Source: Methanocaldococcus vulcanius M7
GTDB lineage: Archaea > AGJL01 > Methanococci > Methanococcales > Methanocaldococcaceae
Reading direction: 5' to 3'
DNA: 64,000 nt
Assembly: GCF_000024625.1 (NCBI RefSeq)
Contig: NC_013407.1
Location: 682,001-746,000 of the forward strand
Shown here one piece after another: positions 15,870 through 20,852 of this stretch. The notes under the pieces were generated by a model. The model ran no database searches. It was given only the letters and a program-made list of their open reading frames with translations, and was not told where the DNA came from. How positions within the stretch are numbered: position 1 is the stretch's first letter; the number at the start of each line of letters is the position of its first letter. The position numbers and the translations under genes were made by a program.

Positions 15870-16628
15870 TTAACAACTCAACGTTTTTATAAAATTAACC
15901 AATTCCTCCACATCTTTAAAACAGATCGGATACTCAATCACCGGTCTCTCAATCACAATAACACGTGCTCCAACTTCCAACGCTCCAAAAACCTTTTCCT
16001 TAAAGCCCCCACTCTCTCCGCTGTCTTTTGTTATAACTACATCACATTTATAATCCCTTATTAAATATTTATTTAATTCCTTAGAAAACGTTCCATACAT
16101 TGCAACAATATGTTTTTGAGGTAAGATCTTTAATGCTTCACTTACAGATATTGGAAGAACTCTCGCTACAACCTTATCCTTTCCAACAATATCAACAACC
16201 GTCTTTAAATTCTTAATCCCTGCCATATGAAAAACTCTACCTGCGTTTTTAGCCAATTTTGCAGCTTCTTCAAAATCTTTAACATAGATAACATTTGGAT
16301 GATCTATCCTTTCCTCTCTTCGTTCAAATCTAACATATTTTATTCTGAGTTCTTTACAAACTTCAATAGCATTTTTACTTGCATTTATTGCAAAAGGATG
16401 AGTTGCATCAACCAAAACATCTATATTATATTTTTTTAAAACCTCCCTTAATTCCTCCTTATCTAAGGGCTTTGTTATAATTTCATTGGCAAAATTCTCA
16501 GCTAACTTACCCCCATAATCAGTAGTAGAGGTATAAACAATAAATAGATCACACAACTCCTCTAATCTTTTAATATTTTTTCCAATCTCAACACTATCCT
16601 TAGTTCCGCCCATTAAAAGTATGTTCAT
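15870..16628 (-). CDS. cbiJ: Cobalt-precorrin-6A reductase
   Basis: A 252-residue NAD(P)H-dependent reductase of the corrin ring in anaerobic cobamide synthesis. It starts ILLMGGTKDS, has the family block DVLVDATHPFAINAS (near residues 70-85), VFHMAGIKNL and ITKDSGESGGFKEKVFGA near the C-terminus. Methanogens need cobamides for the corrinoid methyltransferase Mtr. Start ATG at 16628 follows GGTGAAGTT. It is downstream of rfcS on the same strand but separated by 306 bases that contain a palindromic element, so co-transcription is doubtful. Confidence 0.88.
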   Translation of the reverse strand: MNILLMGGTKDSVEIGKNIKRLEELCDLFIVYTSTTDYGGKLAENFANEIITKPLDKEELREVLKKYNIDVLVDATHPFAINASKNAIEVCKELRIKYVRFERREERIDHPNVIYVKDFEEAAKLAKNAGRVFHMAGIKNLKTVVDIVGKDKVVARVLPISVSEALKILPQKHIVAMYGTFSKELNKYLIRDYKCDVVITKDSGESGGFKEKVFGALEVGARVIVIERPVIEYPICFKDVEELVNFIKTLSC

Positions 16629-16807
16629 AACTTCACCATTAAAATGTTTTTCTTATTCCTCAATGTTTAAACTCTTATAACAATAAATAATTCCAAAACA
16701 CATATTAATTTAAAAGATTTTTATATACTTCTTTTTTACTTATATCAAAATGGAAAATAAAAAAAAAGAAAAAAGTAAAGTTGTCAAATTTAAATAAATT
16801 TAAAAAT

Positions 16808-16864
16808 CTATTTTCCCATTAGAGCCATCTTAGCCAATAAAGCACTTAACTGAATTCTTTCATT
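16808..16864 (-). pseudogene. Displaced second copy of the rfcS 3' end
   Basis: Read on the minus strand, these 57 bases encode NERIQLSALLAKMALMGK and a TAG stop, identical in protein sequence to the last 18 residues of the intact rfcS (16935-16991). The two copies differ at 11 nucleotide positions, all synonymous, including TAG for TAA. There is no start codon or upstream frame; the sequence directly upstream is palindromic element A. It is either the former end of rfcS, pushed away by the element, or a copy carried in by it. Confidence 0.88.
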
Positions 16865-16934
16865 CCATAGGGCTCCGCCCTATTGGTATACCCGGGGATG
16901 CATTGCCTCGCTACGCTCGACAATACCTCTTAAA
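16865..16934 (-). repeat. Palindromic GC-rich element A at the rfcS 3' end
   Basis: A 70-base GC-rich element directly after the rfcS stop codon. On the minus strand it begins TTTAAGAGG, forms a hairpin with arms ATTGTCGAGC and GCGAGGCAAT, continues GCATCCCCGGGTATACC and ends with a second hairpin AATAGGGCGGAGCCCTATGG. Its first bases and last 30 bases are nearly the same as those of element B beside cfbD. No transposase or integrase is nearby. The duplicated rfcS tail starts immediately at its far end, as if the element inserted with, or carried, a 57-base copy of the gene end. Confidence 0.8.
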
Positions 16935-18569
16935 TTACTTTCCCATTAAAGCCATCTTGGCAAGCAATGCACTCAACTGAATTCGCTCATTAGCTCCTTC
17001 AACTATTCTAAAGTCGGTCTCTCCAATAGCATCTGCTAACTCAACCTTCTTCCTTTCATCAATATCTAAATTATTTATCTCTCTAAACATCTGATTCAAT
17101 ATATCCTCTCCACTCATTCCCCATTCGACCATAAGCTTATACAATAAATCCCTTGCTTCAATAAACTTTCCATTTAAAGCTAATTCCATCATCTTTTTAA
17201 CTTCCTCAGGTCTTGCCCTTGATGAGACCTTATAAACAATCTCATCATCTATAACATCACTCAAAGCTGCTGCTGTCTGCAAAACATTTATTGCCTTTCT
17301 CATATCTCCTTCAGAAACATAGATTATTGCATCTAAACCACTCTCAGTTAAATTCAAACCTTCTTTTTCAGCAATCTCTTTGAGCTTTTTGGCAATATCC
17401 TCCTTTTTTAATGGAGAAAACCTAAATATTGCACATCTTGATTGAATTGGAGGAATGATCTTGCTTGGATAGTTGCAACTCAAGATGAAACGAGCTACAT
17501 CTGAATATTTCTCCATAGTTCTTCTTAAAGCGTTTTGTGCATCTGCTGTTAATGCATCACTCTCATCTAAGAATATAATTTTAAATGGAACATCCCCAAT
17601 TGGCTTAGTTCTCGCAAAGTCCTTAACTTTTGTTCTAATTACATCTATCCCTCTTTCATCTGACGCGTTTAGTTCTAAAAAGTTGTCTCTCCAATTTTCT
17701 CCAAATAAGTCCCTTGCTAAACATAAAGCAGCGGTTGTATTATGCAGTATAGTTGGTAAATTCCCACCTATAAAGTTGTGATATTTTGGAACATGTAAGT
17801 CATAGATTGTGAATTCACCATTTAATTGTTCAATTTCAACAATTTCGTCCCAATATAGTTGATTTTCATGTAAGAATATAAGATATAATATTGCATCCCT
17901 TAACTTATCATCTATATTGCCATCTATTGACTCTAATTTGTAGAGAATTTCTTTTAAAACATCTCTACCTAAATCAACATCTAAATTTAATTTTTCTGAT
18001 AAATAGTTTAATATATTTTCATTTATAATTAAACCTTTTCCTTTTAATTTTTCATCTTTAAAGACAAAACCATCTTTTTTATAAATAATATTACATGGAA
18101 CTGCTAACTTATCTCCAACTTTTAAGTTCTCTACCTTTTCCCATTTTATTTCTCCATTTTTGTTGTTTATTAATAAAGGATGATAAGTAGTTACCTTCAA
18201 CTCTCTACCCATTTTGGTTTTTATTTTTATCAAAGTGTTGGTTTTATCTTTATAAACATACTGCACATCGAACTCTCTGATTTTTCCATCTTCATCAATT
18301 CCTAAAACTTTTAAGTTGTTGGTTAAAGTTGCTCCAAATTTTCCATTGCTTATCTTTTCAACAACATCTCCAATCTCTCTAATTTTTCCATTCACAATAA
18401 CCTTTGTATCTCCTGTTAGGCATTTTCCAACCCCTGGAGGTCCGCTAAATAATAAATGCGGCATGCTCTTTTTTTCAACATATTTCTTTAATCTCTTTAC
18501 TATTTCATCCTGTCCAACAATATCATCCAATGTCTTTGGTCTATACTTCTCTACCCATGGTTTCTCCAT
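16935..18569 (-). CDS. rfcS: Replication factor C small subunit interrupted by a mini-intein
   Basis: A clamp-loader ATPase subunit that opens PCNA at primer ends. I start it at ATG 18569 behind GGTGATAATA, giving EKPWVEKYRPKTLDD at the N-terminus and dropping four residues of a longer frame. The Walker A motif SGPPGVGK is split by an intein and resumes TTAALCLAR; after splicing the protein is 316 residues, the normal length. Walker B is FLDESDAL, the sensor/arginine finger region is LRRTMEKYS, and SRC is in IQSRCAIFRF. The C-terminal collar ends LLAKMALMGK. A second copy of that end lies downstream beyond element A. Confidence 0.94.
   Translation of the reverse strand: MEKPWVEKYRPKTLDDIVGQDEIVKRLKKYVEKKSMPHLLFSGPPGVGKCLTGDTKVIVNGKIREIGDVVEKISNGKFGATLTNNLKVLGIDEDGKIREFDVQYVYKDKTNTLIKIKTKMGRELKVTTYHPLLINNKNGEIKWEKVENLKVGDKLAVPCNIIYKKDGFVFKDEKLKGKGLIINENILNYLSEKLNLDVDLGRDVLKEILYKLESIDGNIDDKLRDAILYLIFLHENQLYWDEIVEIEQLNGEFTIYDLHVPKYHNFIGGNLPTILHNTTAALCLARDLFGENWRDNFLELNASDERGIDVIRTKVKDFARTKPIGDVPFKIIFLDESDALTADAQNALRRTMEKYSDVARFILSCNYPSKIIPPIQSRCAIFRFSPLKKEDIAKKLKEIAEKEGLNLTESGLDAIIYVSEGDMRKAINVLQTAAALSDVIDDEIVYKVSSRARPEEVKKMMELALNGKFIEARDLLYKLMVEWGMSGEDILNQMFREINNLDIDERKKVELADAIGETDFRIVEGANERIQLSALLAKMALMGK
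17739..18422 (-). other. Mini-intein within rfcS Walker A motif
   Basis: A 228-residue intein inserted after the P-loop lysine. Block A is CLTGDTKVIV starting at the Cys encoded at 18422, block B is LKVTTYHPLLI with the Thr-x-x-His pattern, block F is FTIYDLHVPKYHNFIGG, and block G ends ILHN before extein Thr. Joining the flanks restores GPPGVGKTTAAL. The region between blocks B and F is about 110 residues with no LAGLIDADG motif, so the homing endonuclease is absent or reduced to a linker. M. jannaschii RFC carries three inteins; this gene keeps only one. Confidence 0.92.
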
Positions 18570-18612
18570 TATTATCACCAAAAATTTTTATAGATCAATA
18601 TAATCCCTAACT

Positions 18613-18666
18613 TTATTCTAATGCATAATCCAAAATCTCTCCAAATCTTGACTTAACAATGTCTCT
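18613..18666 (-). pseudogene. Displaced former 3' end of cfbD
   Basis: On the minus strand these 54 bases read RDIVKSRFGEILDYALE and a TAA stop. The first 14 residues repeat residues near the C-terminus of the intact cfbD, with only one synonymous change in 42 bases (18886-18927 is the live copy). The final ALE and stop look like the original end of the gene. Upstream of this copy is element B, so there is no start codon and the tail cannot be translated as part of CfbD. Confidence 0.85.
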
Positions 18667-18885
18667 CCATAGGGCTCCGCCCTATTGGGATACCCGGGAT
18701 GCATTTACTTCTTAACGGAAGTAAATGCCTCTTAGATTACAGTGGGGCTGAACGAAGTGAAGCCCCACTCTGAGGTATAGTAATCGCCCATGGGCGAGTA
18801 ATGAAATCCGTAGGATTTCATCTGATAGGAGCTTTGCTCCTATGCATGTATTGCCTCGCTAATGCTCGGCAGTGCCTCTTAACAT
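18667..18885 (-). repeat. Palindromic GC-rich element B fused into the cfbD 3' end
   Basis: About 219 bases made of consecutive hairpins, read on the minus strand from the gene: GTTAAGAGGCACTGCCGAGC with its GCGAGGCAA arm; ATAGGAGC/GCTCCTAT; ATGAAATCC/GGATTTCAT; the perfect palindrome TCGCCCATGGGCGA; GTGGGGCT/AGCCCCAC; a second CTAAGAGG followed by CATTTACTTC/GAAGTAAATG; then GCATCCCGGGTATCCC and AATAGGGCGGAGCCCTATGG. Both ends match element A. The first bases provide the last cfbD codons and its TAG stop. No protein is encoded in it. Confidence 0.82.
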
Positions 18886-19932
18886 ATAATCCAAAATCTC
18901 TCCAAATCTTGACTTAACAATATCTCTTTTTCCTAAAACCTTTGCATGTGCATCTAATTCAACAATTGCATAATCATAAATTTCCTTTATTGGATGATAG
19001 GTTCTTGGTCCATCACTTATACCTATCTTTATTATATTTTTGTCTATTTTTTCAATTGGTAAAGCGTGAGGAACACCAGAGACAATAACTGCATCAACAT
19101 CCAAATTTTTTAATATTTCAACTGCCTTCTCTCCAGTTATTGCATACTCATCTAAACCTCCGATAGTATAATCTACATTAAACCTTTTTAATATATTTTG
19201 TGCATCTTTCCTTATCTTTGGAAGTCCTTTATTTATATCCAAATTTGCAATATTTATACAGTTAAAATACTTATTTAATACAATTAGAGGATGAGCAAAT
19301 AAATAGGCGGTCTCTTTCTTAGCATTCAACACACATGCTATTTTTCCATTTTTTTCTTTTAAATTTTTTAATACGTTGATTGCTTCATTTAAATCATCAT
19401 CATAACTTGGCTTTATATATTCTTTCTTTGCCATTCCCCTCTTTTTTTCAACCTCTGTCGCTTTTTTTAATAAAAACTTCTGTCTCTCAAACTCTTTCTC
19501 ATCAATAATGCCTAATTTTAAAGCTGACTCCATTGCCTTTATTGCCCCAACTGTGTTATCTCCACTACCGCTATGCACTTCAACTGGGATAATTGTTGCT
19601 CTATCATCATCTATAAATTCCCATAAATCCTCTCCAATAATCATGCTCGCACACGTTCCAACGATACCGATCATTGGCTGTTCTTTATTTAATTCTCTTT
19701 TTAAATATTCAATTGCATAATCCAGGGCTTTTTTTAAGTTTTCTGAAGCTCCAAAAACAATGGCATTTTCATCAATATTGCTTGTAAAAACCCTAACTCC
19801 ATCTAACTCTAAAAGTCGTGCAGTTCTGAAACAACAACCACTTGGGCCATGTAAAATTATAGCATCAACACCTAAGTCCCTAAGTTGATACATTGCAGCA
19901 GCTATTGGTGAAGGTCTTGGATGGAATATCAT
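18859..19932 (-). CDS. cfbD: Ni-sirohydrochlorin a,c-diamide reductive cyclase, catalytic subunit
   Basis: A 357-residue nitrogenase-like (NflD) subunit that, with the iron protein CfbC, reduces and cyclises Ni-sirohydrochlorin a,c-diamide in coenzyme F430 synthesis. The N-terminus HPRPSPIAAAMYQLRDLG and HGPSGCCFRTARLLE, then GTCASMIIGEDLW and PVEVHSGSGDNTVGA, are hallmarks with the cluster-ligand cysteines. ATG at 19932 follows GGTGAAATTTA. The last codons (MLRGTAEH and stop) lie in palindromic element B and replace an original ALE ending that is now 219 bases downstream. CfbB, an earlier pathway enzyme, is encoded at 46017. Confidence 0.9.
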   Translation of the reverse strand: MIFHPRPSPIAAAMYQLRDLGVDAIILHGPSGCCFRTARLLELDGVRVFTSNIDENAIVFGASENLKKALDYAIEYLKRELNKEQPMIGIVGTCASMIIGEDLWEFIDDDRATIIPVEVHSGSGDNTVGAIKAMESALKLGIIDEKEFERQKFLLKKATEVEKKRGMAKKEYIKPSYDDDLNEAINVLKNLKEKNGKIACVLNAKKETAYLFAHPLIVLNKYFNCINIANLDINKGLPKIRKDAQNILKRFNVDYTIGGLDEYAITGEKAVEILKNLDVDAVIVSGVPHALPIEKIDKNIIKIGISDGPRTYHPIKEIYDYAIVELDAHAKVLGKRDIVKSRFGEILDYMLRGTAEH

Positions 19933-20327
19933 TAAATTTCACCTTGTTGAACTATAAGTGCAGATTTTATTGTATAGTTTTGGTTTTTAGAATCTCATAT
20001 TGAATATTGTATTTTAACGGAAGTAGGTTAAGTATTTTATTCATTATCATAGGTATAGTTTTTTGTTTAATGTTTAAGAATGAGTAGATATTTATTAGAA
20101 GGGGTATTGTAATAATAAGATAATTAGAGCATAGATTCGTTTATATTTATTTTATACGTGGGCTTTATATTTGTTTAATTTTTAATTTTTTAATTGTTTG
20201 ATCTTGTTTCTTAGATTTTCGAATTTTAATTTTTTGATTTAATTGCTTAAAACCGCATATTATTTATTTCATTTTTAACCATTATTTGCTTGTTTATAAC
20301 ACATTAATAAGGTTGGTGAGAGATAAT
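19933..20327. other. Intergenic between divergent cfbD and endA
   Basis: A 395-base divergent promoter region, AT-rich throughout, with no open frame and no GC-rich structure. It should hold the promoters for both cfbD (minus) and endA (plus), but I could not place them with confidence. Confidence 0.4.
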
Positions 20328-20852
20328 ATGGCCAAAAAGATTGTTGGACTATTGGATGGAGATAGGGTGATAGTTTTTGATAAGAACGGTATTTCAAAGT
20401 TATCAGCGAAACATTATGGAAATTTAGAAGGTAATTTCTTATCCCTATCTTTGGTAGAGGCACTTTACTTGATGAATTTAGGGTGGATTGAAGTAAAAGA
20501 TAAAAATAAAAAAATTATAAGTTTTGAAGAGTTATATGAGTATGCAAGAACTGTGGAAGAAAAACTATGTTTAAAATACTTAGTTTATAAAGATCTAAGA
20601 ACAAGAGGTTATATTGTAAAAACCGGTTTAAAGTATGGAGCAGATTTTCGGCTTTATGAAAGAGGAGCAAACATTGAAAAAGAACATTCTGTCTACTTAG
20701 TAAAGGTATTTTCAGAAGATTGTTCTCTTTTACTAAGTGAACTAACAGGATTTGTTAGAGTGGCCCACTCTGTTAGAAAGAAATTATTAATTGCAATTGT
20801 TGATGCTGATGGAGATATTGTATACTACAACATGTCCTATGTAAAACCATAA
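20328..20852 (+). CDS. endA: tRNA-splicing endonuclease
   Basis: A 174-residue homotetramer-type archaeal EndA that cuts the bulge-helix-bulge at tRNA and rRNA intron borders. I start it at ATG 20328 behind GGTGAGAGATAAT; an in-frame start 42 bases upstream lacks a ribosome site. The N-terminal half is the dimerisation domain. The catalytic domain shows [14 protein letters not shown] (Tyr), HSVYLVKVF (His) and [14 protein letters not shown] (Lys), the expected catalytic triad. Length fits the compact methanococcal enzyme. It is followed 160 bases later by the sulfolactate dehydrogenase gene. Confidence 0.92.

Follow-up and report, generated by a model that had tools for sequence, protein, structure and literature searches.

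In the 64,000 nucleotides of Methanocaldococcus vulcanius M7 DNA analysed here (the window), the last residues of CfbD have been replaced by the start of a small palindromic element, element B, and a relic of the gene's end lies on the far side of that element. The same anatomy recurs at other loci, and the live and relic tails differ mostly at synonymous positions. We give an even chance to the reading that the live tail and the element were imported together, by recombination between element-bearing and element-free alleles; judged from the sequences, gene tails duplicated around an element are not confined to cfbD or to M. vulcanius.

The rewritten end of cfbD

The window genome comprises 1,761,737 bases in three contigs. 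Residues 4–350 of the 357 in its CfbD match TIGR03282 (E 3e-164). The live gene ends in ...RFGEILDYMLRGTAEH, giving the C-terminus DY-MLRGTAEH, and its last codons, ATG-TTA-AGA-GGC-ACT-GCC-GAG-CAT-TAG, lie within element B (Table 1), which bears out the earlier note's proposal that the element rewrote the C-terminus and supplied the stop. Beyond the element, the relic reads AGAGACATTG...GATTAT-GCA-TTA-GAA-TAA (...DYALE*). The same note had described a 42-base copy 219 bases on that runs into DY-ALE and TAA, and this description is exact: 41 of the 42 nt of the direct repeat are identical (spacing 261, with 219 bases between the copies), and the sole difference, GAT/GAC, is synonymous. Element B consists of hairpins in a chain, with a predicted RNA fold of −89.5 kcal/mol (z = −7.1). 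The rewritten part of CfbD is its unconserved tail only, outside the TIGR03282 model, which ends at residue 350, so that no functional change is implied. A sequence search at E 1e-5 found no solved structure of a CfbD relative.

Table 1. Positions in the window of the features at the rfcS and cfbD ends.
Feature	Position	Strand	Basis or remark
Relic rfcS end, the R copy of element A	16808..16864	-	encodes the same residues; 9 sense codons differ synonymously
Element A, the other family member in the window, immediately following rfcS	16865..16933	-	94% to core
Live rfcS end, the L copy of element A	16935..16991	-	
End of ancestral cfbD, GCA TTA GAA TAA (ALE, stop)	18613..18624	-	
Relic tail copy R of the direct repeat (cfbD)	18625..18666	-	repeat alignment; also in sibling G008
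Element B, 219 bp, hairpin-module chain	18667..18885	-	RNA fold; module copies elsewhere in genome
Right half of family core, ending CCAATAGGGCGGAGCCCTATGG, abutting the relic directly	18667..18705	-	97% to core positions 30-68
Rewritten codons MLRGTAEH and TAG stop, from the start of element B	18859..18885	-	
Live cfbD, Ni-sirohydrochlorin a,c-diamide reductive cyclase catalytic subunit, 357 aa	18859..19932	-	TIGR03282
Live copy (L) of the cfbD tail in the 42-bp direct repeat	18886..18927	-	repeat alignment

The expectation that ALE or a similar ending is ancestral agrees with the relatives. CfbD ends DYALE in G004 (which we take to be M. jannaschii) and in G001, DYALK in G007, and HELK or HELR in a more distant clade. 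Since the element-free Methanocaldococcus relatives end in ALE or ALK, and none of them in RGTAEH, this ending is the ancestral one. The relic is also present in an independent assembly, that of the sibling genome G008, whose contig C26 carries the same cfbD element–relic junction and ends inside element B; an assembly artefact is thereby ruled out.

Other cfbD genes have been altered at the same place. M. fervens (presumably our genome G002) has an insertion of its own, in which the protein ends DYTLRDAVQPL and the relic lies further on, with a different junction. In the genome that we take to be Methanotorris igneus (G035), an element and a decayed relic follow the gene. Together with the window genome, these insertions indicate that the cfbD end has evidently been struck at least three times. 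In G012 (locus L013), CfbD ends DYMLSKI, encoded by ATGCTAAG, which resembles the element start, and no element follows; this end is possibly the scar of a lost insertion.

A dispersed family with a recurrent layout

The core of the element family is TTAAGAGGCATTGCCGAGCGAAGCGAGGCAATGCATCCCGGGTATACCAATAGGGCGGAGCCCTATGG. Matches to it were found in 12 of the 14 genomes of the genus, in a catalogue built from sequence searches and the stretches around the matches, not from a full genome scan: six in the window genome (two of them weak), six in G008, one weak match in G009, 16–43 in each of nine relatives, among which M. jannaschii is rich in them, and none in G003 and G013. Outside Methanocaldococcus, an order-wide search found the core in only two genomes, both of one other genus. 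The copies are GC-rich, palindromic mosaics of hairpin modules. Rfam gave no match up to E = 1 over window positions 16500-20500. Carriage of the elements by viruses or plasmids was rejected, as the right-end motif had no exact match in IMG/VR and PLSDB gave no hit.

In these hyperthermophilic methanogens the elements occupy gene boundaries: the 3′ ends of protein genes and tRNAs, some gene starts, and the repeats that trail CRISPR arrays. Almost every coding site has an intact gene body to the left of the element, the apparent exceptions being L079 (a tRNA-Ala) and L119 (a gene start). At the array loci L043, L044, L054, L062, L063, L121, L122 and L124, and at L215 and L221 of Methanotorris, the element adjoins a degenerate last CRISPR repeat, and another copy of the repeat comes after the element.

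At the duplicated loci the order is gene body, live tail (L), element (E), relic tail (R) and native downstream DNA, and in two genera this layout recurs at numerous genes, at tRNAs and at the ends of CRISPR arrays. One procedure was applied to the elements and to control anchors drawn from the same loci. A flanking repeat with a local-alignment score of at least 20 was found at 36 of the 73 non-CRISPR element loci and at 2 of 162 control anchors, and one with a score of at least 27 at 26 element loci and at no control anchor. The flanking repeats vary in length, running to ~20–70 bp, and the relic usually starts no more than ~7 nt from the element's right end. Mismatches between L and R reach 24% in the first five bases of R and fall to 6–8% at 10–24 bases in; the high value at the start may be partly junction fuzz. 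The folding energy of the relics does not differ from background (p = 0.58), which rules out palindromic target tails as a common feature.

Some loci carry more than one relic or element trace. Downstream of the M. jannaschii smc relic comes TTCTAAGAGGC, which is like an element start, and L037 and L227 each contain three successive copies of one gene end. The simplest reading of such stacked copies is that repeated rounds would have taken place at the same gene. Besides its tail duplication, rfcS has an in-frame, intein-like insertion within window positions 16935-18581, and the match to rfcS in G008 falls into three pieces more than 1 kb apart, as if additional intein-like insertions were present there.

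Silent divergence and the origin of the tails

Across 24 coding loci, L and R differ at 69 synonymous and 36 non-synonymous codons (58 to 32 with one locus per gene, loci common to several species being non-independent in the larger count), whereas only 19% of random single changes would be synonymous. At an assumed 40% synonymous, which allows for constraint on the live copy combined with none on the relic (32–40% is our own estimate), such an excess has a probability of 9e-8 over all loci and of 2.5e-6 when each gene contributes one locus. The least decayed loci differ almost wholly synonymously, as at rfcS with element A (nine codons to none). The mostly synonymous differences mean that the relics have not been drifting neutrally for long; others have decayed, with frameshifts or non-silent changes (M. 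fervens smc and Methanotorris cfbD among the decayed), so the ages of the relics must vary. We also rejected, by argument, a tail copied with errors at insertion: this could not make the changes at rfcS or M. jannaschii hypE both so dense and wholly silent.

A second comparison is offered by the cfbD relics in G008 and in the window genome. They have the junction and the GAC marker in common and otherwise differ at six synonymous codons to one, an excess which indicates that coding selection acted on both during a large part of the period since the two lineages parted. Divergence between these two genomes is 2.9% in the element, 13% in the cfbD relic and 5.4% in the next 710 bases. The element copies within G008 are also alike one another, and thus conservation of the element is by itself no proof of transfer.

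As to which tail is native, comparison with element-free G007 over 60 positions of M. jannaschii hypE shows 5 differences in the relic and 10 in the live tail, where the gene body leads one to expect 4; compared with sibling G008, the rfcS relic differs at 7 of 57 and the live tail at 11 of 57, with 3 expected. Against more distant relatives the two tails of M. jannaschii hypE are equally far, and hypE and cas4 of G001 do not discriminate between L and R. The live tail of M. jannaschii smc is like that of G012, whose element has the same right junction, and its relic has bases in common with G007. Among the sampled genomes no clear donor was found for the live tail of rfcS or of M. jannaschii hypE. 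Element-free tails are somewhat more divergent than gene bodies, and tails may simply evolve faster. At a few polarised loci there is a fair case for the live tail as the putative imported copy, a case unproven for all.

Two further observations concern smc. In G010 (L136) a patch of the gene is diverged from the close relatives G005 and G006 and is nearer to M. jannaschii, which suggests import of a short tract by recombination within the genus. The very close genomes G006 and G005 (L134, L135) are identical over the preceding 60 or more bases of smc; all of the last six sense codons then differ silently, the downstream DNA is unrelated, and no element is present.

Under the preferred reading, import by recombination, element-bearing alleles would pass between strains and species via homologous recombination, one crossover falling in the tail or body of the gene and a second just within R. 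The donor would then have supplied L and E, and R would be the former working tail of the recipient, stranded downstream. At cfbD the donor would have differed hardly at all, by one silent change, and at rfcS and M. jannaschii hypE it would have been diverged. A crossover just inside the relic would leave both the high-mismatch start of R and the junction and GAC marker common to the two cfbD relics. Decayed relics would be expected of older imports, but also of plain insertion. The first insertion creating each tail duplication would require some other activity.

That some process akin to plain transposition is needed for the first insertion holds under any model. The earlier note took element B to have inserted with a long target duplication. 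A non-autonomous element making unusually long duplications (~40–70 bp), identical at first and diverging later, would fit cfbD taken alone, where 41 of 42 bases agree; it would also fit the long flanking repeats at about half of the elements and the existence of decayed relics. For the family as a whole the claim stands less well, since the L/R differences across the family are mostly synonymous, relatives resemble the relic more closely than the live tail at M. jannaschii hypE and at rfcS, many silent changes without a non-silent one at these two genes are unexpected in a neutral copy, and the two cfbD relics show the same bias. We regard this explanation as possible but unlikely.

Improbable, in our view, is site-specific integration, in which tail and element would travel as a small circle, a recombinase would act in trans, and the carried tail would restore the gene. 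The topology of live tail, insert and relic is that of phage 21 and e14 in E. coli icd, and tRNA 3′ ends are among the targets; however, no tyrosine integrase lies near any element, and G001 and G005 are rich in elements yet gave no PF00589 match at E ≤ 1e-4, this family being present in 7 of the 14 genomes with no core match in the integrase loci. In addition, the junction points at one gene (cfbD, hypE) vary between species, and the diverged tract of M. jannaschii hypE seems to begin upstream of the repeat. We consider it quite improbable that the family is a naturally spreading tail-swap element, gene-less, bearing an alternative and silently altered end of a conserved gene and replacing that end time and again in new hosts, possibly through cutting of the native tail like that of a natural cleave-and-rescue system.

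Continued use of the relic, for example if DNA or RNA lost the element lying between the repeats and both tails stayed under coding selection, would explain the silent divergence of both copies, including the two cfbD relics, but other relics have frameshifts or non-silent changes and the live copy already encodes a complete protein, which makes this very improbable. Least probable of all is nuclease-driven homing, in which the native tail would be cut and the invading allele protected by a recoded tail and an altered relic junction: live tails are silently different, first relic bases are altered and conserved genes are struck repeatedly, but no nuclease is linked, TnpB loci lack the element, junctions differ at the same gene and the cfbD live tail is hardly recoded.

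The candidate mobilisers were rejected on linkage, as neither TnpB, tyrosine integrase nor Y1 transposase is linked to the elements. The 24 TnpB loci gave only 12-nt, chance-level matches to the core, and no element stands next to a TnpB gene, so a TnpB/IscB guide RNA was also dismissed. Y1 transposase (PF01797) occurs in only 2 of the 14 genus genomes, in one of them with in-frame stops. The window genome has, at L208 (G000:C1:48334-48675) and close to a TnpB gene, a reading frame for an IS200-type Y1 transposase that contains three in-frame TAG codons.

Comparison with known systems

Palindromic repetitive elements of M. jannaschii were described by Suyama, Lathe and Bork in 2005 (FEBS Lett 579:5281), and we are aware of nothing there on gene-tail duplication or on silent divergence of the copies. 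The present family likewise consists of dispersed palindromic repeats that feed reading frames, being found in 12 of 14 genomes and encoding the CfbD C-terminus. The elements of Suyama et al. come from the same genus and, as here, are palindromic, dispersed and contribute to reading frames. A later paper cites the 2005 finding that some of them are fused into protein genes (PMC2229807).

Among bacterial repeats, RPE, ERIC, YPAL/RU-2 and REP/BIME are, as here, short, gene-less, structured and mosaic, and sometimes extend ORFs (PMC2229807). YPAL/RU-2 has internal inverted repeats and duplications varying from 3 to 26 bp (PMC2229807), whereas flanking repeats here, in contrast to MITE-like repeats of bacteria, run to ~20–70 bp and are synonymously diverged. 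A MITE was ruled out, because the core ends, TTAAGAGG... and ...CCTATGG, are not inverted repeats and the flanking repeats are long and variable. REP/BIME with its RAYT transposase was likewise rejected on the scarcity of PF01797, a REP-type transposase being absent from most of the element-bearing genomes. The RepRanger survey (2025) gives genome-wide counts of palindromic repeats for M. vulcanius M7 and M. bathoardescens (PMC12306157); unlike the present analysis, it is not known to give the anatomy of individual families or flanking duplications.

In the openly licensed literature searched, no account of duplicated gene tails or of their silent divergence was found. The palindromic repeats of these methanogens appear to mark gene-end exchanges, with live tail, element and fossil tail adjoining. 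Such fossil tails may offer a direct route to recombination between archaeal species at cfbD, rfcS, smc and hypE. For annotation, the C-termini of such genes can vary between close relatives without functional change.

The closest topological likeness is to e14 and phage 21 in E. coli icd, where an insert at the 3′ end carries an alternative gene tail and strands the old tail downstream. Here too an alternative tail lies on one side of the element and the old tail on the other. In the recombinase the likeness fails, PF00589 being neither linked to the elements nor consistently co-occurring with them. In icd the insert is a large phage with its own integrase, whereas the elements described here span 70–300 bp, carry no genes, have no linked integrase and are found at many different genes.
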